In this document: in pieces, positions 1 through 28,650 of the stretch | Numbering within the stretch: position 1 is the stretch's first letter | Layout: every line of letters starts with the position of its first letter | Source of the DNA: Thauera phenylacetica B4P | GTDB taxonomy: Bacteria > Pseudomonadota > Gammaproteobacteria > Burkholderiales > Rhodocyclaceae | DNA length: 42,825 bases | Reading direction: 5' to 3' | NCBI RefSeq assembly: GCF_000310225.1 | Contig: NZ_AMXF01000011.1 | Location: 1-42,825 of the forward strand | Position numbers and translations under genes: made by a program | The notes under the pieces: generated by a model | What the model was told of the DNA's origin: nothing | The model's database searches: none | What the model saw: only the letters and a program-made list of their open reading frames with translations

Positions 1-468
1 CGTCACCGAGGCCTTGCCATCGGCCAGCGTCACCTTGGAGGCGAAGGTCGCCTGCGGCCAGCCCGCGAGCGCGGCGAGCATCTGCCCGGTCTGGTTGGCG
101 TCGTCGTCGATCGCCTGCTTGCCGCAGATCACCAGCTGCGGCTGTTCCTTGTCGCACACCGCCTTGAGCAGCTTGGCCACCGCCAGCGGCTGCAGCTCGA
201 CGTCGGTCTCGACCAGGATGCCGCGGTCGGCACCGATCGCCATCGCCGCGCGCAGGGTCTCCTGGCAGGCGCCCACGCCGCAGGACACCGCCACCACCTC
301 GGTGGCCACGCCCGCTTCCTTCAGGCGCACCGCCTCCTCGACGGAGATCTCGTCGAAGGGGTTCATGCTCATCTTGACGTTGGCCAGGTCCACGCCGCTG
401 CCGTCGGCCTTGACGCGAACCTTGACGTTGTAATCGACCACGCGCTTGACCGGTACGAGGATCTTCAT
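1..468 (-). CDS. etfB: Electron transfer flavoprotein beta subunit, partial (5' part only)
   Basis: The gene runs off the left edge of the window; 156 codons are present from ATG at 468. The N-terminus reads [20 protein letters not shown], a hallmark EtfB start, followed by a segment with [17 protein letters not shown] and an [13 protein letters not shown] stretch that fits the EtfB nucleotide-binding fold. EtfB with EtfA accepts electrons from acyl-CoA dehydrogenases and passes them to ETF:quinone oxidoreductase. The start lies 15 nt downstream of the stop of an acyl-CoA dehydrogenase, so the two are probably co-transcribed and this ETF may serve that enzyme. etfA would be expected just outside the window. 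Family call is secure. Confidence 0.93.
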
Positions 469-2708: not shown

Positions 2709-2819
2709 ATCTTAACGAAAACCGGCGGCCATCAAGCACCACCACCGCCCACCCTCGACAAAGAAAGAGCGCTCCCCTGCCGCATGAGCAGGATCACGCC
2801 CCTGCACGGAAACGGAGAC

Positions 2820-3629
2820 ATGGCGCACCGATTCTCCCTGGCTCGACCGGACGACCCACCCCACTCGCCTGCGGAGACCCTGCGGATCGCGATGCGCGCG
2901 GGTTACACCCACGCGAGTCTGCGGCTTGCCGACCTCGCGGCTGCCGCGTGGCCCTTCCTGCACCGCGACCGCGCCGGGGCCAACGGGGAGGTCCGCGCCA
3001 TCCTCGAGGACAACGGGATCCGGGTGCTCGATCTGGAGGGTGCGCCGATCGACGCCTTCAGCCCGCTCGACACCTTCCTGCCACTGCTCGAGACCGCAGC
3101 CAGGCTGGGCGCACGCCATGTCGTCGCGCGCATCGACGACACCGAACGCGAGCGCGCGACCGAGGCCTTCGCCAGACTGTGCGACCGCGCGCTCCCGTTC
3201 CGGCTGACGGTGGAGTTGTCCTGCGTCCATGGCAGCGCCACCCCCCGACTGGCCGCCGCCGCGGCGGTGGTCGGCGCGATCAACCGCCCGAACGCCGGCA
3301 TCCTGATCGACACGCTGGACTTCACCCGCGCCGGCGACGAGCCCGAGGAGCTGCGCAGGCTGCCCAAGGAGTGGTTCCATCTGGTCCGGGTGCGCGACGC
3401 CGCCTCCGCCGGATCGACCACCAACTGCCCCGCCGTGGTGCTCCCGGGCGAAGGCTCGGTCGACCTGCGCGGCATCCTCGATGCACTTCCCGCCGGGCTG
3501 CCCTACGCGCTGGTGCCGCCGCGCGCCGCGAACGCAGGCGCCGAGGAAGGGTGGGCACGCCGCTGCATCCTGGCCGCGCGCGACTGCATCGACGGTCTGC
3601 ACGGCATCCGGGACCTCCAGGCGGCATGA
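2820..3629 (+). CDS. Xylose-isomerase-like TIM-barrel protein with eroded metal site (TIM-A)
   Basis: 269 aa from ATG 2820, chosen because its start (MAHRFSLA) aligns with that of the paralogue TIM-B (MKQEFSLA); an upstream in-frame ATG at 2784 is possible, since the GGAGA before 2820 is very close. The two paralogues align without gaps over most of their length (e.g. NAGILIDTLDFTRAGDEP here, NAGLMIDMHHFHRAGDDP in TIM-B). In TIM-B the positions equivalent to the family metal ligands are E135, D165, H168, H191 and E239; here they are S134, D164, D167, R190 and V232, so only one is kept. By family it would be an isomerase, epimerase or dehydroshikimate-dehydratase-type enzyme, but it is unlikely to bind a divalent metal in the usual way. 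It may be a non-catalytic partner of TIM-B or a recruited binding protein. Confidence 0.8.
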   Translation: MAHRFSLARPDDPPHSPAETLRIAMRAGYTHASLRLADLAAAAWPFLHRDRAGANGEVRAILEDNGIRVLDLEGAPIDAFSPLDTFLPLLETAARLGARHVVARIDDTERERATEAFARLCDRALPFRLTVELSCVHGSATPRLAAAAAVVGAINRPNAGILIDTLDFTRAGDEPEELRRLPKEWFHLVRVRDAASAGSTTNCPAVVLPGEGSVDLRGILDALPAGLPYALVPPRAANAGAEEGWARRCILAARDCIDGLHGIRDLQAA

Positions 3630-3873: not shown

Positions 3874-4692
3874 ATGAAACAGGAATTTTCTCTCGCCCAC
3901 CTCACCGTGCTGGGCTGCGCGCCCCCCGAGATGGTGTACATCGCGGCGCGCGCCGGATATGACTACGTCAGCATCCGCCCGATCTTCATGGGCCTGCCCG
4001 GGGAGCCGAACTACGCGCTCGCCGAGAACCGGCAGATGCTGGCGCAGACGCGGCGCGCGCTGACGTCGACCGGCGTGCGCGTTCACGACATCGAGCTCGC
4101 GCGCATCTTCGACGGGGTGACCGTGCGCGACTACCTGCCGGCGATGGAGGTCTCCGCCGAGCTCGGCGCCAAGGCGGTGCTGTCGTCGATCTGGGGTGGC
4201 GAGCGCGAGTACTACATCGAGAAATTCGCCGAGCTGTGCGACCTGGCCAAGCCCCTGGGCCTGAGCGTCGACCTCGAGTTCGTCCCGATCGCCGCGGTGC
4301 GCGACCTCGCCGGCGCGGCGGACGTGCTGCGCACGATCGACCGCGACAACGCCGGCCTGATGATCGACATGCACCACTTCCATCGCGCAGGCGACGACCC
4401 GGCGGCACTCGACGCGCTGCCGCGGGAGTGGTTCCATTTCGCCCATTTGTGCGACGCGCCGGCCGTGATCCCCACCGAACGTCAGGAGATGATCCGCATC
4501 CTGCGCGAGGCACGCATGTATGTCGGCGAGGGCGGCATCGACGTCGCCGGCATCCTCGCCCACATTCCGCACTGCGTGTATTCGATCGAGCTGCCCAACA
4601 AGGCCGCGCACGAGGAAATGGGCTACGCCGAACACGCCACCCGCTGTCTCGAAACCCTCAAGGCCTACCTCGCGCGCGACGCTCGCGCTTGA
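3874..4692 (+). CDS. Xylose-isomerase-like TIM-barrel enzyme, metal site intact (TIM-B)
   Basis: 272 aa; ATG 3874 gives an N-terminus that begins directly at strand beta1. The protein belongs to the AP-endonuclease-2 / sugar-phosphate isomerase superfamily that includes inosose dehydratase, hydroxypyruvate isomerase and 3-dehydroshikimate dehydratase. The expected Glu-Asp-His-Glu metal tetrad can be placed at E135 (VDLEF), D165 (LMIDMHHF), H191 (FAHLCDAP) and E239 (YSIELPN), with H168 as an additional active-site His. This spacing resembles 3-dehydroshikimate dehydratases of the AsbF/QuiC type, but substrate cannot be fixed by eye. The AroD homologue follows after 43 nt, so the two probably act in the same pathway. 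It is a paralogue of the degenerate TIM-A upstream. Confidence 0.85.
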   Translation: MKQEFSLAHLTVLGCAPPEMVYIAARAGYDYVSIRPIFMGLPGEPNYALAENRQMLAQTRRALTSTGVRVHDIELARIFDGVTVRDYLPAMEVSAELGAKAVLSSIWGGEREYYIEKFAELCDLAKPLGLSVDLEFVPIAAVRDLAGAADVLRTIDRDNAGLMIDMHHFHRAGDDPAALDALPREWFHFAHLCDAPAVIPTERQEMIRILREARMYVGEGGIDVAGILAHIPHCVYSIELPNKAAHEEMGYAEHATRCLETLKAYLARDARA

Positions 4693-4735: not shown

Positions 4736-5521
4736 ATGAAACACCCCCTGGTGCTCGACCCCGCCGGCCGCAAGCCCGGCGGCGAAACCCCGCTGATCTG
4801 CACCCCGCTGATCGGTCGCAGCAAGGAACGCCTGCTCGGCGAACTCGCCACCATCCTGCGCAAGAAGCCCGACATGCTGGAGTGGCGCGTCGACTGCTTC
4901 GACGCGGTCGCCGACACCGCAGCGGTGCTCGATGCGGCCGTCGCGCTGCGCGCCGCGGCCGCAGGCCTGCCGATGATCTTCACCTGCCGCAGCGCCGGCG
5001 AGGGTGGCCAGCCCACCGCCCTCGACGAGGCCGGCGTAGTCGCCCTGCTCGAGGCGGTGTGCGAAGGCGGGCTCGCCGAATGCATCGACTTCGAGCTCGG
5101 CAATTCGCCGGCCCATGTGCGCCGCGTGCGCGAATTCTCGCGCAAGGCCGACGTGAGCCTGATCCTGTCCTACCACCAGACCAGCTACACGCCCGGGCAG
5201 GAATTCCTCATCGACCGCTTCCTGGAGGCCGAACACCTCGGCGCCGACGTCGCCATGGTCCAGGTCCGGCCGCGCGACCGCGCCGACGTGCTGCGCCTGC
5301 TCGCCGCGACCTCAGAGGCCGACGCGAAGACCCGCATCCCGCTGATCTGCTCGGCGATCGGCCCGCTCGGTTCGGTCAGCCGCATGGTGGGCGGGCTGTT
5401 CGGTTCCTGCCTCACCTTCGCCGTGGGCGAGCACTCCTCGGCGCCCGGGCAGATTCCGGTAGGCGATCTCGTCAGCGTGTTCGACGTGATTCGTCGCGCG
5501 CGCGGTGGCGAGATGTTCTGA
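4736..5521 (+). CDS. Type I 3-dehydroquinate dehydratase homologue lacking the Schiff-base lysine
   Basis: 261 aa, preceded by a GGAG ribosome-binding site. The AroD (type I DHQase) fold is unmistakable: LEWRVDCF (E49, R51), FTCRSAGEGG (R85, E89), SYH with H147 equivalent to E. coli His143, SVSR with R216 equivalent to Arg213, and SAPGQI with S235/Q239 equivalent to Ser232/Gln236. The catalytic Lys170 of E. coli (GADIPKIAV) aligns with M174 in GADVAMVQV; the codon is ATG. All substrate-binding residues are present but the imine-forming residue is gone, so normal type I dehydratase chemistry is not expected. It lies between TIM-B and a ChrA pair and overlaps the first ChrA ORF by 17 nt. It may bind a dehydroquinate-like compound or catalyse a different lyase or isomerase reaction. 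Confidence 0.88.
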   Translation: MKHPLVLDPAGRKPGGETPLICTPLIGRSKERLLGELATILRKKPDMLEWRVDCFDAVADTAAVLDAAVALRAAAAGLPMIFTCRSAGEGGQPTALDEAGVVALLEAVCEGGLAECIDFELGNSPAHVRRVREFSRKADVSLILSYHQTSYTPGQEFLIDRFLEAEHLGADVAMVQVRPRDRADVLRLLAATSEADAKTRIPLICSAIGPLGSVSRMVGGLFGSCLTFAVGEHSSAPGQIPVGDLVSVFDVIRRARGGEMF

Positions 5522-6143
5522 GACCGTGCCGAATCCGGACGGCAAGTCGGGCGTAACCCCCGCGGCGGAAGCGGGCGCCACGCCCGGGTTGCTCGAACTC
5601 TTCCTCGCTTGCAGCCGCATCGGCCTGTCCGGCTTCGGCGGCGTGCTGCCCTTGCTGCGCCACATGCTGGTCGAGCAACGCCGCCTGCTCGACGGCCCCG
5701 AATTCAACGCCCTCCTCGGCCTGTGCCAGTTCCTGCCGGGCTCGAACGTGATCAACCTCGCGGTGTGCGTGGGCGCGCGCCTGCACGGCGTGCGCGGCGC
5801 CATCGTCGTGACCGCGGGGCTGCTGATCGCCCCCTTCGCGCTGATGATGGGGCTCGCCGCCCTCTACGGCCTGTGGGGCCATCTCGCCATCGTGCAGGAC
5901 ATGCTGCGAGGCATCGCGGCCGCCGGCGCCGGGCTGCTGTTCGCCACCGGGCTCAAGATGGCGCAGGCCATGCATGAACGCTGGCTTTACCTGCCCTTCG
6001 CCGTGCTCATCCTGGTGGCCATGGTGGTGCTGAAGCTGCCGCTGCCGCCGCTGATGCTCGCCCTGCTGGCCGTCACCGCCGGACTGGCATGGTGGCGCGC
6101 ACGCCGCGCGCTGGCGGAAGCCGGGAAGGTGCCGAGGCCATGA
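5505..6143 (+). CDS. chrA: ChrA-family transporter, N-terminal-type half (ChrA1)
   Basis: 212 aa, a single chromate-transporter domain (short-chain ChrA family; long ChrA proteins have two). It carries the family signatures SGFGGVLPLLRHMLVEQRR and CQFLPGSNVINLAV, followed by several hydrophobic segments to the C-terminus. ATG 5505 overlaps the end of the AroD homologue by 17 nt; GTG 5526 is an alternative start placed just after that stop. It also overlaps the second half-transporter by 4 nt, so the two are translationally coupled and likely form a heteromeric carrier in the inner membrane. The family is named for chromate efflux, but this placement inside a catabolic operon suggests an organic anion as the physiological substrate (inference). 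Confidence 0.85.
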   Translation: MARCSETVPNPDGKSGVTPAAEAGATPGLLELFLACSRIGLSGFGGVLPLLRHMLVEQRRLLDGPEFNALLGLCQFLPGSNVINLAVCVGARLHGVRGAIVVTAGLLIAPFALMMGLAALYGLWGHLAIVQDMLRGIAAAGAGLLFATGLKMAQAMHERWLYLPFAVLILVAMVVLKLPLPPLMLALLAVTAGLAWWRARRALAEAGKVPRP

Positions 6144-6664
6144 TCCTGCTGCTGCTCGACCTGTTCGTCCAGTTCGCGATCCTCAACGTGATCGCCTTCG
6201 GTGGCATCACCGCGCTGCTGCCGGAGCTTCACCGCCTGGTGGTGGAGCAGCGCATGTGGATGGACAGCACCACCTTCGCCCATCTGTTCGCGATCGCCCA
6301 GTCGGCACCCGGGCCGAACCTGCTCGTGGTGTCGCTGATCGGCTGGAAGGTCGCCGGCATTCCCGGCGCGATCGTCGCCACGCTGGCGATCAGCCTGCCG
6401 ATGAGCGTCTTCATCTACGTCTTCTACCGCCACTGGGAACGCTTTCGCACCGCACCCTGGCGCGCGGCGATCCAGGTCGGCGTCGCCCCGCTCGCGGTCG
6501 GCCTGGTGTGCGCCAGCGGCTGGCTGATCGCCGCCTCGGCCGGGCTCGACTACCGCGGCGTCGCGCTCGTCGTGGTGTGCACCGTGCTGATGTTCTACCG
6601 CCACTGGCACCCGCTGTGGTACATCGCCGCGGGCGCCGCGGCGGGGGCGGCGGGCCTCGTCTGA
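6140..6664 (+). CDS. chrA: ChrA-family transporter, C-terminal-type half (ChrA2)
   Basis: 174 aa starting at ATG 6140, which overlaps the ChrA1 stop as ATGA. It holds the second ChrA half domain: NVIAFGGITALLPELHR near residues 15-31 and IAQSAPGPNLLVVSLIGWK around residues 51-69 mirror the FGG and PGxN motifs of ChrA1, followed by hydrophobic membrane helices. It presumably pairs with ChrA1. It is the last gene of the plus-strand operon and converges on the ThDP enzyme gene; the strong hairpins at 6714-6793 lie between them. Confidence 0.85.
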   Translation: MILLLLDLFVQFAILNVIAFGGITALLPELHRLVVEQRMWMDSTTFAHLFAIAQSAPGPNLLVVSLIGWKVAGIPGAIVATLAISLPMSVFIYVFYRHWERFRTAPWRAAIQVGVAPLAVGLVCASGWLIAASAGLDYRGVALVVVCTVLMFYRHWHPLWYIAAGAAAGAAGLV

Positions 6665-6804: not shown

Positions 6805-8568
6805 TCAGTCCGTGCTGACGTGCGATACGCCGCCGTCGGGCGAGTAGATGTCGAGGATGTTCCAGTGGCCGGTGGTGGGCACCGGGTTGTTCTTCATCGC
6901 GACATCGATCACGAAGGGCTTGTTCGACTTGACCGCACGTTCCAGCACCTCCTTGAACTCGGCGGCCGATTCCACCTTGACGCCCTCGGCGCCGTAGGCG
7001 CGCGCGACGGCGGCGAAGTCGGCCTGGTAGGGCTGGTCGTCCTTGCGGAAGAGCGTGCCGACGGTGGTGCCGTAGTGCGCCTTCTGCAGGCCGGCGATCG
7101 TGCCGAACGCGAAGTTGTTCATCACGATCCAGATCGCAGGGATGTCCTCTTCCACGGCGGTGGCGAGCATCGCCGGGTTCTGGCCGAAGCCGCCGTCACC
7201 GACCAGGGAGACGACCACGCGATCCGGGCAGGCGACCTTGGCACCGAGCGCGGCCGGGGCGCCGAAGCCCATGGTGGCGTAGCCGCCCGGGGTGAGGATG
7301 CTGCCCGGAGTGTAGATCGGGAACTGCTGGCCCACGCCGTTCTTGTTCCAGCCGACGTCGGTGGTGATGATCGCGTCGCGCGGCAGCACCTCGCGCACGA
7401 CCGAGAGGATGCGCTCAGGCATCATCGGGAAGCAGTCGTCCTCGACGAACTTCTGGTTGCCGGCGACGAAGGTCTTGCGGAACTCGGCGATCTCCTGGCG
7501 CAGGGCTTCATTGCGGCGCGGCTGCGGCAGCATCTCGCGGGCGACGCGGTTGAGCACCTTGAGCGCTTGCTTGAGATCGGCCACGGCGCCGATGGCGACC
7601 GGATAGTTGCGGCCGATCTCGGACGGGTCGATGTCGATGTGGATCAGCTTGCTCTTGTCGAAGTCGAAGGTGAACTCTTTCTCCCAGGAGCTGCAGTCGG
7701 CCTCGGCGAAGCGGGTGCCGACGCCGAACACCCAGTCGGCGTTCAGGCACTTGCCGTTGACCAGCTCGGTGCCCCAGAAGCCGGTCATGCCCAGGACGAG
7801 GTCGTGGTCGTCGGGCAGCACGCCCTTGCCCATCAGCGAGTGCGCGACCGGGATGCCCATGTGGTCGACGAAGGCCTTCAGCTCCTCGGCCGCGTCGGCG
7901 AGGATCACGCCACCGCCGGCCTGGATCACCGGGGCCTCGGCGTCGAGCAGGGCCTGCACGATCTGGCGTGCGGTCTCGTCGTCGATCGAGGGCTTGTTGA
8001 GCGCGCGGGTGTGTCTGGAGACGCGTTCGAACAGCGCGGGATCGATCTCGCGCGAGAAGAAGTCCATCGGCACGTTGACCAGCACCGGGCCGGGGCGGCC
8101 GCTCTCGGCGAGCTGGAAGGCCTTCTCCATGATCTCCGGGAACAGCTCCGGGGTGTCGACGCGCCAGGCGCGCTTGACGAAGGGGCGGTAGATCTCCCAC
8201 TGCGAGGCGTCCGCGTGCAGGTTGATCTCCTGGTGCGGGTGCTTGCCGTAGTAGTAGCTCGGAATGTCGCCGGCGATGACCACCATCGGGATCGAGTCGA
8301 GGGCCGCGTTGGCGACGCCCGTGGAGGCGTTGGTGAGGCCCGGGCCGAGGTGGCTGAGCACGACCGAGGCCTGCTTCTTCGCGCGTGCGTAACCATCGGC
8401 GGCGTGCGAGGCGATCTGCTCGTGGCGGGTGTTGATGAAGCGGATCTTGCTGCCCTCCAGCGCGTTGAGCACCGCGATGTTGGTGTGGCCGCACAGACCG
8501 AAGATGTGCTCGATGCCGCGGTTCTCGAGGTACCGGACGAGCTGGTGAGAGATCGTTTGCTTTTTCAT
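6805..8568 (-). CDS. Thiamine-diphosphate-dependent 2-oxoacid decarboxylase / acetolactate-synthase-like enzyme
   Basis: 587 aa from ATG 8568, which has a perfect AGGAGG site; the frame is open further upstream but lacks support. Three-domain POX/ALS architecture: the N-terminal Pyr domain has RHEQIASHAADGYARA with the catalytic Glu at residue 50; the C-terminal domain has the ThDP/Mg signature GDG-GFGQNP...-NN with the expected 24-residue spacing. It does not resemble oxalyl-CoA decarboxylase in its N-terminal motifs. The family decarboxylates 2-oxoacids or transfers the activated aldehyde. Directly upstream on the same strand are a citryl-CoA-lyase-like protein and a CoA-transferase, and an aldehyde dehydrogenase lies further upstream. 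The best guess is that it decarboxylates the 2-oxoacid released by the lyase to an aldehyde. Confidence 0.87.
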   Translation of the reverse strand: MKKQTISHQLVRYLENRGIEHIFGLCGHTNIAVLNALEGSKIRFINTRHEQIASHAADGYARAKKQASVVLSHLGPGLTNASTGVANAALDSIPMVVIAGDIPSYYYGKHPHQEINLHADASQWEIYRPFVKRAWRVDTPELFPEIMEKAFQLAESGRPGPVLVNVPMDFFSREIDPALFERVSRHTRALNKPSIDDETARQIVQALLDAEAPVIQAGGGVILADAAEELKAFVDHMGIPVAHSLMGKGVLPDDHDLVLGMTGFWGTELVNGKCLNADWVFGVGTRFAEADCSSWEKEFTFDFDKSKLIHIDIDPSEIGRNYPVAIGAVADLKQALKVLNRVAREMLPQPRRNEALRQEIAEFRKTFVAGNQKFVEDDCFPMMPERILSVVREVLPRDAIITTDVGWNKNGVGQQFPIYTPGSILTPGGYATMGFGAPAALGAKVACPDRVVVSLVGDGGFGQNPAMLATAVEEDIPAIWIVMNNFAFGTIAGLQKAHYGTTVGTLFRKDDQPYQADFAAVARAYGAEGVKVESAAEFKEVLERAVKSNKPFVIDVAMKNNPVPTTGHWNILDIYSPDGGVSHVSTD

Positions 8569-8668: not shown

Positions 8669-9502
8669 TCAATCCTGCGGCGGCAGGCTGCGCCGCGCCG
8701 GACCGGCATAGGTGTAGGGAATGCTCTTGGGCATCGGGCCCTTGATGCGGCCGCCCTGCTGATGCTGCTCCCATGCGTGCGACAGGATGCCCACCGAGCG
8801 CGACAGGATGAACAGGCCGCGACCGAGCTCCGGCGCGAAGCCGAGTTCGGCGTAGATCACCGCGGTCGCACCGTCGATGTTCATCGGGATGCGCTTGCCC
8901 TTGCGGCGTTCGAGGACGCGCTCGACCTCGCGGCCGATGTCGACGTAGCGCCCGCTCACCGCCCCCTTGTCGCGCGCAGCTTCGGTGAGCGCCAGCAGAC
9001 GGCCCGAGCGCGGGTCGATCGGATGGAAGCGGTGACCGAAGCCGGGGATGACCTTGCCGTTCTCGGCCACCCAGGCGTCGAGCGCGAGCTCGACCGCCTG
9101 CCCGATCGGCTCGCCCGCGTCCATGCGACGCGCCACGTCGGCGTAGATCTCCATGCACTGCTGGCCGGCGCCGCCGTGGATGCCGGCGAGCACATTGACC
9201 GCCGAAGCCATGGCGTTGTTGAGCTCGACGCCGCAGGTGACGGCCATGCGCGAGATCGAGATCGACGGCGCCTGCGGGCCGTGATCGACCGCCGCCACCA
9301 GTGCGGCCTCGAGCAGGCCGGCCTGCTCGGGCGTGGGCAGATCGCCGCGCACCATCAGCCAGATCATCTGGGGGAAGCTGATGTTGCCGATCAGCTCCTC
9401 GATCGGATAGCCGCGGACGGCGATCTTGCCCGGGTGGATGTCGATGATCTCGGTGGTCCACCAGGCCTTGGCTTCCTGGACGATGTCTTCTGCGCTTTTC
9501 AT
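8669..9502 (-). CDS. Short citrate-synthase-family protein, citryl-CoA-lyase-like
   Basis: 277 aa from ATG 9502, two bases after the stop of the CoA-transferase, so the two are tightly coupled. It is much shorter than citrate synthase (about 430 aa) but keeps the catalytic core: H109 in LAGIHGGAGQ (CS His274), H157 in PGFGHRFHPIDPR (CS His320) and D210 in MNIDGATAVIYAELGF (CS Asp375). Short members are usually called citryl-CoA lyase and split a 3-hydroxy-3-carboxyacyl-CoA into acyl-CoA plus a 2-oxoacid. With the CoA-transferase making the thioester and the ThDP enzyme consuming an oxoacid, the lyase direction is more likely than synthesis. The substrate is unknown; a citramalate- or citrate-like acid is possible. 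Confidence 0.83.
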   Translation of the reverse strand: MKSAEDIVQEAKAWWTTEIIDIHPGKIAVRGYPIEELIGNISFPQMIWLMVRGDLPTPEQAGLLEAALVAAVDHGPQAPSISISRMAVTCGVELNNAMASAVNVLAGIHGGAGQQCMEIYADVARRMDAGEPIGQAVELALDAWVAENGKVIPGFGHRFHPIDPRSGRLLALTEAARDKGAVSGRYVDIGREVERVLERRKGKRIPMNIDGATAVIYAELGFAPELGRGLFILSRSVGILSHAWEQHQQGGRIKGPMPKSIPYTYAGPARRSLPPQD

Positions 9503-9504
9503 GG

Positions 9505-10707
9505 TCAGACCGCCTTGGCGTCGTGAAGTTGGGCGATTTCCGCAGCCGAGTAGCCGAGTTCCACAAGCAGGGAGTCGGTGTGCTCGCCGAGCTGCGGCGG
9601 CGGCGTGGCGACGTCGGGGTTGCCACCCGCCATCTTGAAGCCGGCGCGCACCAGGCTGATGTCGCGGCCGACGCCGGGCACCTGCTCGAAGTGCGCGAGC
9701 AGGTCGCGGGACTGGATCTGCGGATGGCCGAGGACCTGCGGCACGCTGAGCACCCGCCCGGCCGGCACGCCCAGCTTGGCGAGGATGGATTCCCACTCCG
9801 CGGCCGACTTGCCGGCGAGCCCGGCCTCGACCTCGACCTTGAGCGCCTTGCGATTGCGCTTGCGCGTCTCGCGCTCGGCGAAGCGCTCGTCGGTGGCGAG
9901 CTCGGGGCGACCGATCGCCTCGGCAAGGGCGACGAACTGCTCCTGCTTGTTGGCGGCGATGTTGAGCAGCCCCTCGCCGGTGCGGAAGGTGCCCGACGGC
10001 GCGGCGGTGAAGTTCTCGTTGCCCATGGGCACCGGCTCCTTGCCCGCGATGAGATAGTTCGAGACGATCCAGCCCATGGTGACGATCGTCGAGTCGAGCA
10101 TCGACACGTCGATGAACTCGCCCTCGCCGCTGCGGCTCTGGCGCACCAGCGCGGCCGCCACGGCGAACGCGGCGGTGATGCCGCCGATGGTGTCCGCCAC
10201 CGGGTAGCCCACGCGCAGCGGCGCGCTTTCGTGGTCGCCGGTGATGCTCATAACGCCGGACATGCCCTGCACGATCTGGTCGTAGGCCGGCGCATGACGC
10301 ATCGGCCCGCCCTGGCCGAAGCCGGAGATGGCGCAATAGACCAGCTTGGGGTTGGCTTTCTTGAGGATCTCGTAGCCGAGGCCGAGGCGGTCCATCACGC
10401 CGGGGCGGAAATTCTCGACGAGCACGTCGGCGGTGCGCACCAGGCGCAGCAACACTTCCTTGCCGGCATCGGACTTGAGGTTGAGGGTGAGCGACTTCTT
10501 GCCACCGTTCTGGGCGAGGAAGGAAGCGCCCATCTTCTTCTTGTTCAGTTCGGCATCGGCGCCGAGCTGGCGCGCCAGGTCGCCCGATTCGGGCACCTCC
10601 ACCTTGACCACATCGGCGCCGAGCAGGCCGAGCTGATAGGCGCAGAACGGCCCGGCGAGCACGTTGGTGAGGTCGAGTACGCGGACTCCGGAAAGTGCAG
10701 CGGTCAT
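9505..10707 (-). CDS. Class III (CaiB/BaiF) CoA-transferase, CaiB1
   Basis: 400 aa, full family length. The N-terminal signature reads SGVRVLDLTNVLAGPFCAYQ with GADVVKVE, and the catalytic Asp is in EGEFIDVSMLDS. VENFRPGVMDRLGLGY is the usual CoA-binding segment. Enzymes of this class move CoA between carboxylic acids (formyl-CoA:oxalate, succinyl-CoA:mesaconate and similar). It is the first gene of a minus-strand operon with the lyase (2-nt gap) and the ThDP enzyme. Two RGAAC-N3-RTTCY-like sites lie 60-105 nt before its ATG, suggesting IclR control. It would activate the acid that the lyase cleaves. A second, distinct CaiB gene lies at 17221-18471. Confidence 0.9.
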   Translation of the reverse strand: MTAALSGVRVLDLTNVLAGPFCAYQLGLLGADVVKVEVPESGDLARQLGADAELNKKKMGASFLAQNGGKKSLTLNLKSDAGKEVLLRLVRTADVLVENFRPGVMDRLGLGYEILKKANPKLVYCAISGFGQGGPMRHAPAYDQIVQGMSGVMSITGDHESAPLRVGYPVADTIGGITAAFAVAAALVRQSRSGEGEFIDVSMLDSTIVTMGWIVSNYLIAGKEPVPMGNENFTAAPSGTFRTGEGLLNIAANKQEQFVALAEAIGRPELATDERFAERETRKRNRKALKVEVEAGLAGKSAAEWESILAKLGVPAGRVLSVPQVLGHPQIQSRDLLAHFEQVPGVGRDISLVRAGFKMAGGNPDVATPPPQLGEHTDSLLVELGYSAAEIAQLHDAKAV

Positions 10708-10951: not shown

Positions 10952-12442
10952 TCAGCGGCGGATGAAGGGATTGGGGACGTCGAGGTCGGTCGAGATCCAC
11001 ACGCACTTGGTCTCGAGGTATTCCTTGATCGTCTCGCTGCCCGACTCGCGACCGATGCCGGAGCGCTTGAAGCCGCCGAAGGGCGCGGTGAAGCTGGTGG
11101 CGCGGTAATTGTTCACCCAGATCGTGCCGGCCTTGAGCTTGTCAGTCACCAGCATCGCGCGGTGCAGGCTCTGGGTCCACACGGCGCCGGCCAGGCCGTA
11201 GAGGACGTCGTTGCCGATGCGGATGGCGTCTTCCTCGTCCTTGAACTTGATCACCGACAGCACCGGGCCGAAGACTTCTTCCTGCGCGATGCGCATGCTG
11301 TTGTCGACCTCGGTGAAGATCGTCGGCTCGACGAACAGGCCTGCACCGAGGTCGGGACGCGCCTTGCCACCGAGCACGCATTTCGCACCCTCGGACTTGG
11401 CCACCTCGATGTAGCTCAGCACCTTCTCGAACTGAGGGCGGGTGGCGACCGGGCCGATCTGGGTGTCCATCTGCGTCGGGTCGCCGAGCTTGGCCTTGCT
11501 GACGAAATCGATCAGGCGGGCGATCAGCTCGTCGTGGATGGATTCCTGCACCAGCAGGCGCGAGCCGGCCTGGCAGCTCTGGCCGGTGGCGGCGAAGATG
11601 CCGGACACCACGCCCTTGACCGCCTGGTCGAGGTCGGCATCGTCGAACACGATGTTGGGCGACTTGCCACCGAGTTCGAGGGTGACCGTCTTGAGGCCCT
11701 TCGCGGCCTGCTCGTAGATCATCTGGCCGGCGATCTCGCCACCGGTGAAGCCGATGTGGGCGACGTCGGGATGCGCCACCAGCGGCTCGCCGACTTCCTT
11801 GCCGAAGCCGGTGACGACGTTGACCACACCCTTCGGAAAGCCGGCCTGCTCGAACAGCTTGCCGAGCTCGACCGCCGAGGCGGAGGTGAACTCGGACGGC
11901 TTGATCACCGCGGTGCAACCGGCGGCGAGCAGCGGCGCGAGCTTCCAGCTCGTGAGGGTGAGCGGCGAGTTCCACGGCGTGATCACCGCGACGACGCCCT
12001 TGGCCTCGTACTTGGTGTAGCAGAACACGCCCTTCTTGTCGGTCGGGATGACCTGGCTCTGCACCTTGTCGGCGAGACCGGCGTAGTACTGGAAGTACTG
12101 CCCCATGTAACGCACCTGGGCGACGACCTCGGAGGCCAGCTTGCCGTTGTCGCGCATCTCGATGTCGGCCAGGTGCTGGGCGTTGGCGATGATCAGGTCG
12201 CCGAGACGCCACAACAGGCGGCCGCGCTCGCTGGCGGTCATCTCGGGCCAGGCGCCCTTCTCGAAGGCGCGATGCGCGGCGGCGACGGCAGCCTGCACGT
12301 CGTCCTTGTTGCCGCGGGCGATCATCGCCCAGGCCTCGCCGGTGTAGGGATTCTCGGTCGGGAAGTACTCCCCCGAGGCCGGCGGCACGATCGCGCCGTC
12401 GATGTAGTTGCCGTAGTGCGGAAGGGTCGCGGTGTTTGCCAT
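10952..12442 (-). CDS. NAD(P)-dependent aldehyde dehydrogenase
   Basis: 496 aa, standard length. Motifs in order: TPWNSPLTL, FTGGEIAGQ (coenzyme site), LELGGKSPN with the general-base Glu, and GQSCQAGSR with the catalytic Cys; a PFGGFKRSGIGRE segment closes the protein. It oxidises an aldehyde to the acid. It is divergent from IclR2, with a perfect operator-like palindrome in the shared promoter region, and ends at a strong terminator ahead of the CoA-transferase/lyase/ThDP operon. The simplest reading is that it removes the aldehyde made by the ThDP enzyme. Exact substrate class (semialdehyde or simple aldehyde) cannot be told. Confidence 0.92.
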   Translation of the reverse strand: MANTATLPHYGNYIDGAIVPPASGEYFPTENPYTGEAWAMIARGNKDDVQAAVAAAHRAFEKGAWPEMTASERGRLLWRLGDLIIANAQHLADIEMRDNGKLASEVVAQVRYMGQYFQYYAGLADKVQSQVIPTDKKGVFCYTKYEAKGVVAVITPWNSPLTLTSWKLAPLLAAGCTAVIKPSEFTSASAVELGKLFEQAGFPKGVVNVVTGFGKEVGEPLVAHPDVAHIGFTGGEIAGQMIYEQAAKGLKTVTLELGGKSPNIVFDDADLDQAVKGVVSGIFAATGQSCQAGSRLLVQESIHDELIARLIDFVSKAKLGDPTQMDTQIGPVATRPQFEKVLSYIEVAKSEGAKCVLGGKARPDLGAGLFVEPTIFTEVDNSMRIAQEEVFGPVLSVIKFKDEEDAIRIGNDVLYGLAGAVWTQSLHRAMLVTDKLKAGTIWVNNYRATSFTAPFGGFKRSGIGRESGSETIKEYLETKCVWISTDLDVPNPFIRR

Positions 12443-12741: not shown

Positions 12742-13464
12742 ATGAGCACAGAAGGTGTGGCATCGGTAGAGCGTGCGCTCTCCATCCTGGACGTTTTCAC
12801 CGACCGCGAGAAAAGCCTGACCCTGACCGAGATCTCCAAGCGGGCCGGGTTCTACAAGAGCACCACGCTCCGCCTGGCCGAGTCGCTGGAGAAATTCGGC
12901 TACCTGCGCCGCTTCGAGGACGGCACCTACATGATCGGCCCCAAGCCGCTCTTCCTCGGTTCGCTGTACCAGCGCCACTTCAGCACGCACGACTTCATCC
13001 CGCCGCTGATGCGCCGAATGTCCGAGGAACTGCGCGAGGGCATCTCCTTCTTCATTCGCGACGACAACCATCGCGTCTGCCTGCACCGGGTCGAGGCGCC
13101 GCGCTCGATCCGCGACACGATCCACGAGGGCGATGCCTTGCCGCTGACCGTGGGCGCCTCCGGGCACGTGCTGATGGCATTCAGCGGGATGAGCGGGGAA
13201 CGCTACGACCAGGTGCGCGCGCGCCTGTACGCGATCTCGCTCGGAGAGAGGGATCCCGAAACCTCGGCCGTCGCCGCCCCGGTGTTCTCCGGCGGGCAAA
13301 GGCTGGTGGGCGCGCTGACCGTTTCCGGGCCGCGCTACCGCCTGGACCAGGCCGCGCTGGAGGCGATCGTGCCGGCGCTGCAGCGTTACGCCGCCGAACT
13401 CACCGAAACCCTCGGGGGAGCCTGGCCGGGCAAGAGCGACGCCAAGCCGGCCGGCGCCGACTGA
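12742..13464 (+). CDS. IclR-family transcriptional regulator (IclR2)
   Basis: 240 aa from ATG 12742. The frame is open far upstream, but the IclR fold starts at VASVERALSILDVFTDREK, so the downstream start is right; its ribosome-binding site is weak. The winged helix covers residues ~5-65 (LTLTEISKRAGFYKSTTLRL) and the effector domain follows (GASGHVLMAFSG, GALTVSGPRYRLD). It is divergent from the aldehyde dehydrogenase and probably controls it. It is a different protein from IclR1, yet both regions carry the same operator-like sequence, so the two may cross-regulate or only one of them may read that site. Confidence 0.9.
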   Translation: MSTEGVASVERALSILDVFTDREKSLTLTEISKRAGFYKSTTLRLAESLEKFGYLRRFEDGTYMIGPKPLFLGSLYQRHFSTHDFIPPLMRRMSEELREGISFFIRDDNHRVCLHRVEAPRSIRDTIHEGDALPLTVGASGHVLMAFSGMSGERYDQVRARLYAISLGERDPETSAVAAPVFSGGQRLVGALTVSGPRYRLDQAALEAIVPALQRYAAELTETLGGAWPGKSDAKPAGAD

Positions 13465-13516: not shown

Positions 13517-14392
13517 TCAGGCGCGGACGGCCGCGGGGATGCGGCGGCGCGGCAGATCGATGTGGCGCAACTGGTCGATCAGCCAGAGCAGGGATTCGCG
13601 CGCCTGATCGGCGACGAGCTCCGGCGGCAACTGGGCGAAATCGTCGTTGCAGGCGTTCAGATAGAAGCCGCCATGGAAACCGATCACGCGCAGGCGGCGG
13701 ATCAGCTCGAGCAACGACTCCGCATGACTGCCGTCGCCGGGAAAAACCCGGACGAAATCGCGCTCGCCGCGGGTCTGCTCTTGCGGATGAAGTGCGATCG
13801 CGTCACTGAGCCCGACCAGGAACAGGCGATCCCCGTAACACCGGTCCAGGGCATCGAGCCCGCGATCGGCGACGAAGAGGTGGCCGGTATCGATCGCCAG
13901 CCCCAGGTTCGCGCGCTCGGCGGCATTGACACGCTCCTCCGCACTCACCACGTCGCACGCCACCGCCGAGCCCGGGCGCCCCTGATAGGCGATATCGACC
14001 CCCTTGGGCACGGCGAGTGTCGCCAGCTTTGCGAGATCGCGCGCGACACGAACCGGATCGGCCGCCGCCTCGGGCACGCCGCTGGCCGAGACGAGCAACA
14101 TCGGCGCGCCAATCGCACGACACAGCCCGAGGAGTCCCTTCGCAACCGTCACCTTGTACTCGTGCAGTGGTCCTTCGAGTCCCTCGAAATCGCTCAGCTG
14201 GCGCAGCGCCTGCACGCGCACCCCGGCGCCGCGCACCAAGGCCACGGCGGCCTCCACGCCCTGCGGATGCCCCACCAGGTCGGACGCCGCGAACACCATG
14301 CGCCGGAACCCCCGGCTCACCGCTGCGTGCAGGCGCGCTTCCAGCGGGCCCGCCATCGAACTGGCATCCAGCGCGACAGAATCGAAATCCAA
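13517..14392 (-). CDS. QuiC-N-like TIM-barrel protein with altered metal ligands (TIM-C)
   Basis: 291 aa. The start is a TTG at 14392 with a strong AGGAGGG site 5 nt upstream; no ATG fits. The protein resembles the N-terminal half of 3-dehydroshikimate dehydratase QuiC: LSDFEG, NLGLAIDTGHLF, DRLFLVGLSDA, RDFVRVFPGDGS and NDDF lie in the same order. Compared with QuiC (from memory), the metal-ligand positions are Q137 for Glu, D168 kept, G194 for Gln and N246 for Glu; H171 and the active-site Arg (R215) are kept. Three of four ligands are therefore lost. It follows the HPPD-like VOC gene by 60 nt, matching the domain pair that is fused in QuiC but split here. Classic dehydroshikimate dehydratase activity is doubtful. 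Confidence 0.78.
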   Translation of the reverse strand: MDFDSVALDASSMAGPLEARLHAAVSRGFRRMVFAASDLVGHPQGVEAAVALVRGAGVRVQALRQLSDFEGLEGPLHEYKVTVAKGLLGLCRAIGAPMLLVSASGVPEAAADPVRVARDLAKLATLAVPKGVDIAYQGRPGSAVACDVVSAEERVNAAERANLGLAIDTGHLFVADRGLDALDRCYGDRLFLVGLSDAIALHPQEQTRGERDFVRVFPGDGSHAESLLELIRRLRVIGFHGGFYLNACNDDFAQLPPELVADQARESLLWLIDQLRHIDLPRRRIPAAVRA

Positions 14393-14452
14393 GCTTCCCT
14401 CCTGGAATCATTGCGAACGACCGCATCCGGGCGCCACACGCCCGGGCGGGGT

Positions 14453-15316
14453 TCAGACCTCGGTCGGCTTGCTCGCGACCAGCTCGAAAGTGGCGGAGCC
14501 GAGATACACCTGGGTGAGCGCACCGCGTTCACCCGGATGCAGATGCCCCTCGTCGATGAAGACCAGCCCCCGCTCGCGCAGCAGACGGGTCGCCTCCGGG
14601 ACGTCGGGTGCGCCGAAGCCGATACGCACCAGGCCTTCGTCCCAGTGGATGTCCTCGGCCCCCTCGGGCGGCTCGACGAGTTGCACGTAGAAACGACCAC
14701 AGGGGCTGCGCAACAGCGTGCCCTTGGGAAGGATGCCGACGAAGCTGCCCGGCGGCAGTTCGACGAAGCCGAGCAACTGACTGTAGAAATCCACCCACTC
14801 GCCGGTGCGGAAGGCCCCCACCGCCTGCACCAGTCCGAAATAATGCAGGCCGGCGATCGCGGGGGGGTTGGGATCCATGCCCGGCAAGGGCACGAAATCT
14901 ACGTCGTAGATGGAAAAATCCTTGTAGCGATCGACGAAGTAGATCGTGCTGTCGCCGCTGCCCAGGATGCCCGGGATGTTGAGCTCCATCGCAGCAGCCC
15001 GTCGCGGGATCTCCCAAGCGCCGGCGTCGAGCGAGTGACGCATCGCATGCGCCGCATCACGAACCCGGAAGGCCACCGCGGAGAGGTAGGTCGCGCCCGG
15101 CTCGGCGCTGGCCCCGTCGGCGTTCACGATCAGGTTCATAGCCCCCTGGCGGTACAGCACCACCTCGCGAGAACGATGGCGCGCCACCGGCGCGAAGCCC
15201 ATGAGCTGGAGCACACCACCCAGCGCCTGAGGCTTGCCGGTGACGAACTCGATGAACTCCACCCCATCCATGCCCAGGACATTCCGGGGTTCGGGAACCA
15301 GATCCAACGCAGTCAT
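14453..15316 (-). CDS. HPPD-like VOC-superfamily protein (QuiC C-terminal-domain type)
   Basis: 287 aa. The N-terminal VOC unit resembles 4-hydroxyphenylpyruvate dioxygenase (MDGVEFIEFV, LMGFAPVARHRSREVVLYRQG), and the C-terminal unit should hold the 2-His-1-Glu iron site. H158 (AGLHYFGL) and E278 (ATFELVAS) are present, but the middle His (HPPD pattern QHIA) aligns with R231 in GLVRIGFGAPDV. The iron triad is thus broken and dioxygenase activity is unlikely. In QuiC-type dehydroshikimate dehydratases a domain like this is fused behind the TIM barrel; here it is a separate gene upstream of TIM-C. An AAGG site precedes the ATG. It is part of the AroQ / TRAP-binding-protein gene run. Confidence 0.8.
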   Translation of the reverse strand: MTALDLVPEPRNVLGMDGVEFIEFVTGKPQALGGVLQLMGFAPVARHRSREVVLYRQGAMNLIVNADGASAEPGATYLSAVAFRVRDAAHAMRHSLDAGAWEIPRRAAAMELNIPGILGSGDSTIYFVDRYKDFSIYDVDFVPLPGMDPNPPAIAGLHYFGLVQAVGAFRTGEWVDFYSQLLGFVELPPGSFVGILPKGTLLRSPCGRFYVQLVEPPEGAEDIHWDEGLVRIGFGAPDVPEATRLLRERGLVFIDEGHLHPGERGALTQVYLGSATFELVASKPTEV

Positions 15317-15485: not shown

Positions 15486-15923
15486 TCAGCGCAGCTTGCT
15501 GGCGATGAACTGCAACGCGAGGTTGTAGCCCATCGTCCCGAAACCGGCCATCACCGCCTCGGCGATATCCGAAAGATAGGAATGGTGGCGGAAGGGTTCG
15601 CGCTTGTGCACGTTGGAGATGTGCACTTCGACGAAGGGCAGGGCCACGCCATTGAAGGCATCGCGGATCGCCACGCTGGTGTGCGTATAGGCACCGGGAT
15701 TGATCAGCGCGAACTTCACGCCCTCGCTGCGCGTCTGGTGGATGCGCTCGACGATCGCACCTTCGTGATTGCTCTGGAAGCAGAGCACTTCGAGGCCGAG
15801 CTCGCCGCCCTGGGCGACCAGGCCGCTCTCGACGTCGGCCAGCGTGGTGGCGCCGTAGATATGGGGCTCGCGGGTGCCGAGCAGGTTGAGGTTGGGGCCG
15901 TTGATGACGAGGACCTTGCTCAT
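15486..15923 (-). CDS. aroQ: Type II 3-dehydroquinate dehydratase
   Basis: 145 aa, normal type II size, starting at ATG 15923 after GGAGA. All hallmark residues are visible: [12 protein letters not shown] with the catalytic Tyr and the active-loop Arg, [18 protein letters not shown] and FVEVHISN with the catalytic His. It dehydrates 3-dehydroquinate to 3-dehydroshikimate. In contrast to the AroD homologue at 4736, this enzyme looks fully competent. It lies between the TRAP binding protein and the QuiC-like VOC/TIM pair, which suggests quinate/shikimate catabolism rather than the biosynthetic role, although a housekeeping function cannot be excluded because no other dehydroquinase gene is visible here. 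Confidence 0.95.
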
Positions 15924-16062: not shown

Positions 16063-17088
16063 TTACTTCGTCCGCAGCTTGGCGAGTTCCGCCTGCAGCT
16101 CGGTAACGACGTCGGCACCGACGGTGGCCGAGTGCTTCTCGATCACCGGCTTCATCTTCTCGCGCAGCTTTGCGACCTCTTCCGGCGGCAGCTCGGTGAC
16201 CTGCATGCCGGCCTTCTTGAGCGCTTCGAGGGCGGTCTCGCTTTGCTCGCGCGAGACCTTGCGCTGATGGGCGATCGCCTCCTTGGCCGCATCCTGGAAC
16301 ACTTTCTTCTCATCCGCGCTGAAGGTGTCCCACACCTTCTTGCTGATGATCATCGATTGCGGGTTGTACTGGTGGCGGGTCAGCGCGAGATGCTTCTGCA
16401 CCTCGGCGAACTTGTTCGCGAGGATCACGGTGACCGGGTTCTCCTGGCCATCGACCGCGCGCTGCTCGAGTGCGTTGAACACCTCGGGGAAGGCCAGCGC
16501 CACCGGGTTGGCACCGAGCGCCTGCACCCAGTCGAGGTTGATCGGGTTGGGGATCACGCGCAGCTTCAGGCCGGCGATGTCTTCCACCTTGTTGATCGGA
16601 CGCACGTTGTTGGTCAGATTGCGGAAGCCCAGCTCCCAGTAGCCGAGGGCGACGATGCCCTTTTCCTCGAGCCTGGCATGCAGCTTCTGGCCGAAGGGGC
16701 CGTCGACGACCGCGTCGACCTCGTCGGAGTTGTTGAACAGGAAAGGCAGGTCATAGACGCCGAGCGCCGGCACGTGCGAGGCGAGGATACCGGAGTTGAG
16801 CGCGGTCATCTCGATGGTGCCGCCCTGCAGGGCCGAGACCGTCTGCTGGTCGCCGCCGAGCACGCCACCCGCGAACACGCGCACCTTGATCTTGCCGCCG
16901 GTCTTCTCGCCGACCAGGTCGGCAAACTTCTGCGCGCCGACCTCCGCCGGGTGTCCCTTCGGGTTCTGGATGCCGAGGCGAAGCGTGCGCTCGGAGAAGC
17001 TCTGGGCATACGCGCCCATGCTGGCCACTCCCATCGCCAACGCAGCGGCAGCGGTCATTGCGGTCTTGATGAACATCCGTTTCTTCAT
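16063..17088 (-). CDS. TRAP transporter solute-binding protein, DctP family
   Basis: 341 aa from ATG 17088 with an AGGAG site; an upstream in-frame start at 17136 lacks support. Residues 1-28 are a Sec signal peptide ([19 protein letters not shown]...AYA-Q). The mature protein has DctP features: [27 protein letters not shown], and [11 protein letters not shown] with the Arg that normally clamps the substrate carboxylate. DctP proteins deliver organic acids to a DctQ/DctM membrane pair in the inner membrane. No dctQ or dctM lies in this window, so it is an orphan that must use a distant permease. Its position between a CoA-transferase and aroQ suggests a cyclic or branched carboxylate such as quinate (inference). 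Confidence 0.9.
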
Positions 17089-17220
17089 GGTCGATCTCCT
17101 CAGTGCCGGGACGGCGGGTACGCAATTGTCTTGCACGACTGCGTGCGTACCGGACGCAGTCGCACTGTATCTCAGACGGGACGCGCCGACCGCGCCCCGA
17201 TGCGGCGGGCCGGTGGAGCC

Positions 17221-27195: not shown

Positions 27196-28650
27196 TTCCT
27201 GCAGGCCCGCCGGCAGGCGCAAAGGCGGCGCGAAGGCGGTGCGAAGGCGGCGGCGGAGTTCTGGGCTCGCGTCGATCGCGGGGCCGCCGTGTTCGCAGCT
27301 GCCGCAGCTCCTACAGGAGGCGGGCGCGCGGTGGTTTTGTAGGAGCGCCGGCAGGCGCGAAGGCGGCGGCGAAATTCGGCGCTCGCGTCGATTGCGGGGT
27401 CGCCGTGTTCGCAGCTGCCGCAGCTCCTACAGGAGGCCGGGACGCGCGGTGGTTTTGTAGGAGCGCCGGCAGGCGCGAAGGCGGCGGTGGAATTCTGGGC
27501 TCGCGTCGATTGCGGGGGCGCCGTGTTCGCAGCTGCCGCAGCTCCTACAGGGGGCGGGGGCGCGGTGATTTTGTAGGAGCGCCGGCAGGCGCGAAGGCGG
27601 CGGCGGAATTCGGCGCTCGCGTCGATTGCGGGGTCGCCGTGTTCGCAGCTGCCGCAGCTCCTACAGGGGGCGGGCGCGCGGTGGTTTTGTAGGAGCGCCG
27701 GCAGGCGCGAAAGCGGCGGCGGATCCTGGGCTCGCGTCGATCGCGGGGCCGCCGTGTTCGCAGCTGCCGCAGCTCCTACAGGGGGCCGGGACGCGCGGTG
27801 GTTTTGTAGGAACGCCGGCAGGCGCGAAAGCGGCGGCGGATCCTGGGCTCGCGTCGATTGCGGGGTCGCCGTGTTCGCAGCTGCCGCAGCTCCTACAGGA
27901 GGCCGGGACGCGCGGTGGTTTTGTAGGAGCGCCGGCAGGCGCGAAGGCGGCGGCGAAATTCGGCGCTCGCGTCGATTGCGGGGTCGCCGTGTTCGCAGCT
28001 GCCGCAGCTCCTACAGGGGGCGGGCGCGCGGTGGTTTTGTAGGAGCGCCGGCAGGCGCGAAAGCGGCGGCGGAATTCTGGGCTCGCGTCGATTGCGGGGG
28101 CGCCGTGTTCGCAGCTGCCGCAGCTCCTACAGGGGGCCGGGGGGCGCGGTGATTTTGTAGGAGCGCCGGCAGGCGCGAAAGCGGAGGCGGAATTCTGGGC
28201 TCGCGTCGATTGCGGGGGCGCCGTGTTCGCAGCTGCCGCAGCTCCTACAGGGGGCGGGGGCGCGGTGATTTTGTAGGAGCGCCGGCAGGCGCGAAAGCGG
28301 CGGCGGAATTCTGGGCTCGCGTCGATTGCGGGGGCGCCGTGTTCGCAGCTGCCGCAGCTCCTACAGGGGGCGGGGGCGCGGTGATTTTGTAGGAGCGCCG
28401 GCAGGCGCGAAAGCGGCGGCGGAATTCTGGGCTCGCGTCGATTACGGGGCCGCTGTGTTCGCAGCTGCCGCAGCTCCTACAGGGGGCGGGGGGCGCGGTG
28501 GTTTTGTAGGAACGCCGGCAGGCGCGAAAGCGGCGGCGGATCCTGGGCTCGCGTCGATTGCGGGGGCGCCGTGTTCGCAGCTGCCGCAGCTCCTACAGGG
28601 GGCGGGGGGCGCGGTGGTTTTGTAGGAGCGCCGGCAGGCGCGAAAGCGGA
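27196..28650. repeat. REP/BIME tandem array, about 12 units of 116-118 bp
   Basis: This fills the gap between dgt and gltB; no gene is present. Each unit has one REP in plus orientation (GTAGGAGCGCCGGCAGGCGC, hairpin GCGCC-GGCA-GGCGC) and one of a second type in minus orientation (read on the minus strand, GTAGGAGCTGCGGCAGCTGC). Plus-type copies start at 27339, 27457, 27573, 27689, 27806, 27923, 28039, 28157, 28273, 28389, 28506 and 28622; a degenerate copy lies near 27197. Copies at 27806 and 28506 read GTAGGAAC. The spacer exists in GGAATTC and GGATCC versions. The GTAG head plus hairpin is the hallmark of REPs mobilised by RAYT transposases; no RAYT gene is in the window. Confidence 0.9.

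Follow-up and report, generated by a model that had tools for sequence, protein, structure and literature searches.

According to the available part of PMC9902378, the type I 3-dehydroquinase reaction proceeds through a Schiff base on Lys, with a His assisting. A natural departure from this chemistry has been described in a fungus. In the accessible portion of PMC9074039, the dehydroquinase (DHQase) domain of Candida albicans Aro1, which lacks both the Lys and the His, is reported to be inactive by assay, and the type II enzyme Dqd1 can compensate. Here, a bacterial case is presented from the window, a stretch of 42,825 nucleotides of Thauera phenylacetica B4P, in which the Lys of a type I homologue is replaced by Met and the other contacts are kept. 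A natural bacterial enzyme of this kind raises the question of what a Schiff-base enzyme does without its nucleophile. Judged from its sequence, window AroD is, by slightly better than an even chance, a natural pseudo-dehydroquinase within a catabolic island, with the type II enzyme AroQ able to cover its reaction. The substrates of the island are probably hydroaromatic acids such as quinate or shikimate. The features are as follows.

1 to 468, minus strand: electron transfer flavoprotein (ETF) subunit, cut by the window start, 78% identical to Azoarcus sp. KH32C
484 to 1656, minus: acyl-CoA dehydrogenase, 86% to KH32C
1753 to 2583, minus: IclR-type regulator, divergent from the TIMa-TIMb-aroD-chrA row
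2784 to 3629, plus: TIMa, AP_endonuc_2 TIM barrel with three of four IolI-type metal-ligand positions lost and a long branch (profile, alignment, tree)
3874 to 4692, plus: TIMb, AP_endonuc_2 (IolI-like) TIM barrel with all four metal-ligand positions kept (profile, alignment)
4736 to 5521, plus: aroD, encoding a type I dehydroquinase homologue (AroD) whose Schiff-base Lys position holds Met, codon 5255-5257 (open reading frame, profiles, alignment)
5505 to 6143, plus: chromate-transporter (ChrA) half, overlapping the aroD end (profiles)
6089 to 6664, plus: second chromate-transporter half (profiles)
6805 to 8568, minus: ThDP enzyme (acetolactate-synthase-like), 86% to KH32C and 61-70% in 13 other clusters
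8669 to 9502, minus: citryl-CoA lyase (NF004864, 458.9 bits, cut-off 261)
9505 to 10707, minus: CoA-transferase family III
10952 to 12442, minus: aldehyde dehydrogenase
12742 to 13464, plus: second IclR-type regulator, 78% to KH32C (start approximate)
13517 to 14392, minus: TIM barrel matching the QuiC N-terminal part (58 bits)
14453 to 15316, minus: HPPD-like protein matching the QuiC middle (64 bits)
15486 to 15923, minus: AroQ, type II dehydroquinase, start taken at MSKVL (family cut-offs passed)
16063 to 17136, minus: TRAP solute receptor DctP

Met at the Schiff-base position and the pocket wall

The aroD frame is intact, running from an ATG at 4736 to a stop ending at 5521 and encoding a single domain of 261 amino acids, as a preliminary description of this DNA had it. 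Window AroD passes both curated cut-offs for type I 3-dehydroquinases, scoring 192.1 bits against Pfam DHquinase_I (cut-off 22.2) and 155.1 bits against NCBIfam aroD TIGR01093 (cut-off 139.3). When aligned to solved type I enzymes, M174 (codon ATG) stands opposite Lys170 of 1gqn, which confirms the correspondence proposed in the preliminary description. As the Schiff-base Lys170 is missing, we would not file window AroD functionally as a type I dehydroquinase. The seven residues named at the outset are all present, including H147 at the position of acid/base His143 and the substrate contacts E49, R51, R85, R216, S235, and Q239, which correspond to E46, R48, R82, R213, S232, and Q236 of Escherichia coli. 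A second assembly (L030, from a record whose title names a Thiobacillus MAG) matches the window at 99.91% identity across 11,175 bp and encodes the same AroD protein, with one of the 10 differing bases lying in aroD, where it is silent. Since the Met recurs in this assembly, it is not an isolated base-call error, and a base-call or assembly error as its origin is rejected.

The earlier statement that the known mechanism needs the Lys agrees with the Schiff base described in the available text of PMC9902378. Because the Lys is absent, normal dehydratase activity is unlikely; no Schiff base would form, and 3-dehydroquinate (DHQ) would not be dehydrated at a useful rate. It is highly improbable that window AroD still works as a dehydroquinase via another residue or another lysine, even though the His, Arg, and Glu contacts are kept, since Lys170 is the imine residue of the mechanism as the available part of PMC9902378 describes it and all seven lysines of the protein (2, 13, 30, 43, 44, 137, 198) lie outside the 18 active-site columns tabulated from the sequence alignment. 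Another Lys in the pocket was one of the findings named beforehand as fatal to the original interpretation, and the sequence alignment places none at the tabulated columns. The fold, the carboxylate and diol contacts, and H147 are retained, and window AroD would most likely still bind a hydroaromatic acid non-covalently.

The survey of the Lys column rests on 93 proteins placed from genome searches and one genome_contigs scan, of which 82 are distinct, window AroD included. The column holds K in 80 of these, one is a fragment ending before the site, and M occurs in window AroD only, in a count to which KH32C alone of 63 plasmid records contributes. L028, a 61-residue match not recovered by tblastn, is left out of all alignments, and the fragment L123 is left out of the tree. 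No row that extends to these positions departs from E49, R51, R85, E120, H147, R216, or Q239, and position 235 is S or T. Since these contacts are common to every relative, keeping them says little by itself about window AroD.

The preliminary description had asked whether a clade with Met exists. No such clade was found among 297 genomes of the family (28 with a match), 399 of the order (17), 369 of the class (6), the genera of G264 (28 genomes, 16 with a match), G604 (22, 14), and G006 (5, 3), or the six loci of the genome_contigs scan. The same is true of the 29 genomes of the window's own genus, of which the window's genome alone has a type I match. Because the searches at family, order, and class level sample larger groups evenly, and some genomes appear in more than one search, a Met relative may still exist elsewhere. 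In the tree, window AroD stands alone as one tip of a 16-row clade (98/92); the 15 other rows, all with Lys, form its sister group (99/86). That no second species with Met is found limits the pseudoenzyme, new-reaction, and decay readings alike.

The pocket beyond the named contacts is less conserved than the preliminary description held, as five or six wall positions are changed. Thirty-seven columns are conserved in at least 95% of 73 relatives (counts that leave out L123, L035, L051, and L055-L059); window AroD keeps 32 of these and departs at F149T, K174M, A176Q, M178R, and M208I. M206S is a sixth departure, at a column conserved at 86% when L055-L059 are left out. By alignment count, the E. 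coli counterparts of F149, K174, A176, M178, M208, and M206 are F145, K170, A172, M174, M205, and M203. Four of the six changes are to polar residues (T, Q, R, S), and the spacing suggests that the changed positions face the barrel interior, around the imine.

A second AroD group (L029, L127, L128) keeps the Lys and is changed at T83A, F149H, and A176V/I. Two of its three members adjoin ThDP and TIMb genes, the third lies at a contig end, and each of the three genomes carries a further, ordinary AroD.

The wall changes exceed what simple loss would need and could mark a new function, which counts against a mere pseudoenzyme. A neofunctionalised pocket would convert a pathway intermediate without Lys, using H147/E49 and R178/Q176 in, for example, an enolisation, isomerisation, or elimination. 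We regard this reading as rather unlikely, though it is kept alive by the clustering of the changes. All five departures fall within the seven 95%-conserved columns of stretches 143-149, 172-179, and 203-209 (hypergeometric 4.8e-5, for stretches picked post hoc). In leave-one-out counts over 74 proteins, window AroD has the most departures (five) at an ordinary overall divergence, followed by L052 with four and by L029, L127, L128, L034, L053, and L054 with three each, and 47 rows have none. It also fits a new reaction that the L029/L127/L128 group shares two changed columns, 149 and 176, with window AroD. However, the Met form is in no second species searched, so no conserved new site can be recognised, and the wall changes may simply follow loss of constraint. 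In addition, R at 178 also occurs in L055 and L056, distant relatives with Lys in which 208 varies too, so these two changes alone need not abolish function. The original proposal of a new reaction or a binding role is thus borne out in part: a retained role is plausible, but a new reaction is one option only, as an intact AroQ lies 10 kb away.

The type II enzyme AroQ and the question of decay

Under the pseudo-dehydroquinase reading, AroQ would supply the interconversion of DHQ and 3-dehydroshikimate (DHS) where needed, by a mechanism without a lysine. It is the genome's only type II match, as window aroD is its only type I match, in an assembly of 681 contigs from which a copy could have been missed, and it is the only intact dehydroquinase detected. 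At least one type II match is present in all 29 genus genomes, with two in one genome. Across the 29 other loci of the genus, identity to window AroQ is 76-88% in 28 (79-88% in 27 of these) and 48% in the remaining one. This last is L179, the only type II match of its genome, with an N-terminal motif unlike that of window AroQ. DctP adjoins aroQ in the window, as it does at two further loci of the genus (77%). A gltD-like gene, named by eye, lies beside aroQ in L165 and 4.6 kb from aroQ in the window, and accB, sought as a neighbour by its biotin-site motif, was not found in 32 loci with short flanks. The idea that AroQ is a catabolic newcomer is weakened, since the same AroQ is carried across the genus. 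It looks like a resident enzyme of the genus around which the catabolic genes have gathered, and its link to the aroD cluster may therefore be positional only.

The redundancy that AroQ creates would also permit recent loss, in which a superfluous aroD is drifting toward decay and is still open because the loss is recent. We consider this unlikely. That only one locus with Met is known would suit it, as would the state of TIMa, upstream in the same operon, which has lost three metal-ligand positions. TIMa has E to S and E to V changes at sites where the 11 other TIM proteins in the comparison all retain E, and an H to R change at a site that is H in seven of these and Q in four; the altered positions are presumably the IolI metal ligands. 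Its branch measures 1.15 against 0.10 for the KH32C sister, though its placement as a long branch is unsure. TIMa is likely a second pseudoenzyme, and part of the operon looks relaxed.

By the same measures, aroD in the same gene row does not appear relaxed. Its root-to-tip distance is 0.401, within the 0.308-0.564 of its 15 sisters, so it is not accelerated as TIMa is. Its frame is open, with a GC content by codon position of 0.72, 0.49, and 0.90, and neighbouring genes have third-position values (GC3) of 0.83-0.96. Moreover, most conserved columns are kept and the changes are not scattered. There are also no amino-acid differences to L030, though L030 is too close for a strong test. Since aroD has diverged no faster than its Lys-bearing sisters, a role may plausibly have been retained, and divergence rate and codon pattern together make decay over a long period unlikely. 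The earlier claim that the gene is not decaying is upheld to that extent, with recent loss staying a rival.

Related clusters and a possible pathway

Much of the window's cluster recurs on plasmid pAZKH of Azoarcus sp. KH32C (L096), which shares the ETF, acyl-CoA dehydrogenase, two IclR regulators, ChrA pair, ThDP enzyme, citryl-CoA lyase, and CoA transferase at 69-88% identity. TIMa and TIMb match the KH32C TIM barrel at 49% and 44%, and the window's aldehyde dehydrogenase, AroQ, and DctP have no match in the 40-kb KH32C stretch. In contrast to window AroD, the KH32C AroD has the Lys, is only 42% identical, and lies beside a shikimate dehydrogenase and a ThDP enzyme rather than ChrA. Since window AroD is closer to AroDs of other genera (53-60%) than to this one, it probably has a history separate from the rest of the cluster. 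The TIM-barrel/ChrA neighbourhood about which the preliminary description had asked is recovered only in part: a TIM barrel lies near some Lys-bearing relatives, but in the stretches searched the ChrA pair occurs only in the KH32C cluster, where aroD lies elsewhere.

A ThDP enzyme is present in eight of 22 AroD-centred stretches, which include KH32C and L107 and are in some cases cut by contig ends. Fourteen clusters outside the window, some from stretches fetched for TIMb, have a ThDP enzyme of at least 60% identity; as loci were picked by AroD or TIMb matches, the proportions among them are no census. A TIM barrel of the TIMa/TIMb kind occurs in all 14. AroD occurs in eight, always with Lys (L067, L096, L145, L147, L149, L150, L151, L152), AroQ in two (L100, L102), and neither dehydroquinase in four (L098, L099, L101, L105); only the window has both. 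Ten of the 14 were seen to have a shikimate-dehydrogenase-like gene (the exceptions being L067, L147, L149, and L152), and six to have citryl-CoA lyase (L096, L105, L147, L149, L150, L152). The window's own genome carries a second related gene set (L106, C47:1-16000) with two TIM barrels, an IclR regulator, a shikimate-dehydrogenase-like protein (33%), an aldehyde dehydrogenase (74% to its window counterpart), and a ThDP enzyme (50%). Further along the window, two plus-strand open frames (27626-28042 and 28326-28625) share nearly the same first 30 residues, suggesting a repeated stretch.

Anaerobes ferment hydroaromatic compounds. The cluster might encode an undescribed oxygen-independent, non-aromatising breakdown of quinate and shikimate, in which AroD, freed by AroQ, was reshaped without the Lys for a pathway intermediate, a proposal that we put forward as speculative and improbable as a whole. 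Quinate would first give DHQ, from which an IolE/IolI-like TIM barrel would remove water to yield a ring 1,2-dione (3,4-dione). The ThDP enzyme would then open this ring by hydrolysis to homocitrate semialdehyde, in the manner of IolD and cyclohexane-1,2-dione hydrolase. Homocitryl-CoA would then be made by aldehyde dehydrogenase and CoA transferase in the window, or by a CoA-acylating aldehyde dehydrogenase in some related clusters, and cleaved by citryl-CoA lyase to acetyl-CoA and 2-oxoglutarate. Shikimate would enter through hydration of DHS to DHQ by AroD or AroQ.

The lyase step draws support from a score well over the citryl-CoA lyase cut-off and from the best solved relative, which is a citryl-CoA lyase (135.7 bits, against 75.7 for citrate synthase). 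Two gene solutions for acyl-CoA formation also seem to exist: in L147 the lyase is preceded by an aldehyde dehydrogenase nearest acylating types (SauS model, 468 bits, below the cut-off of 600), with a gene similar by eye in L152, and the window instead pairs an ordinary aldehyde dehydrogenase with a CoA transferase. However, the ThDP enzyme shows no particular kinship with ring hydrolases. Among its solved relatives acetolactate synthase scores best (271.5 bits), and with 176.6 bits for cyclohexane-1,2-dione hydrolase its identity as that hydrolase proper is unsupported. Citryl-CoA lyase is seen in fewer than half of the clusters, KH32C is without the aldehyde dehydrogenase in the stretch read, and the QuiC-like pair allows ordinary aromatisation to protocatechuate. 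In this pair, the TIM barrel and the HPPD-like protein are separate genes (13517-15316, minus strand), both well below the QuiC model cut-off. Among the matches listed from the open-access PMC literature, no title or abstract names a non-aromatising quinate route or its genes, a weak negative. The recurrent pairing of a ThDP enzyme with an IolI-like TIM barrel, to which part of the clusters add shikimate dehydrogenase, citryl-CoA lyase, or a type I or type II dehydroquinase, nevertheless offers a testable proposal for O2-free hydroaromatic ring opening.

Comparison with known systems

The fungal quinate repressor (QutR/QA-1S/QutX) is, as we take it, a non-catalytic relative of shikimate-pathway domains that acts in quinate regulation. 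QutR-type repressors consist of fused AROM-derived domains. Window AroD does not have this architecture, being one domain of 261 amino acids beside separate IclR regulators. The domain origin of the fungal repressor is not settled by the available part of PMC12610400.

The Lys-bearing sisters (15 rows, e.g., L133, L129, L130, L131, L038, L017) are 53-60% identical to window AroD and have the same contacts and His. They differ in that all keep the Lys and the F149/A176/M178/M206/M208 wall. Among the eight with fetched surroundings, L147, L149, and L150 lie near genes for a ThDP enzyme, citryl-CoA lyase, and a TIM barrel. The AroD chain of PDB 3nnt and 4iuo resembles window AroD in having Met at 170, with the other contacts kept in the alignment. 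Both entries are presumably an engineered Salmonella K170M mutant with a non-covalent ligand and an otherwise wild-type wall. The term K170M gave no match in the open-access PMC literature.

The nearest natural case with an assay behind it is C. albicans Aro1, which, going by the accessible portion of PMC9074039, is likewise a type I domain that has naturally lost the catalytic Lys, and for which a type II enzyme can compensate. It differs from window AroD in being part of a fungal multi-domain protein, in having lost the His as well (to Gln), and in that its inactivity was shown by assay. Window AroD shares with Aro1 the natural loss of the Lys and departs from it in keeping H147; AroQ, which passes its family cut-offs, is a candidate for a compensating type II enzyme.
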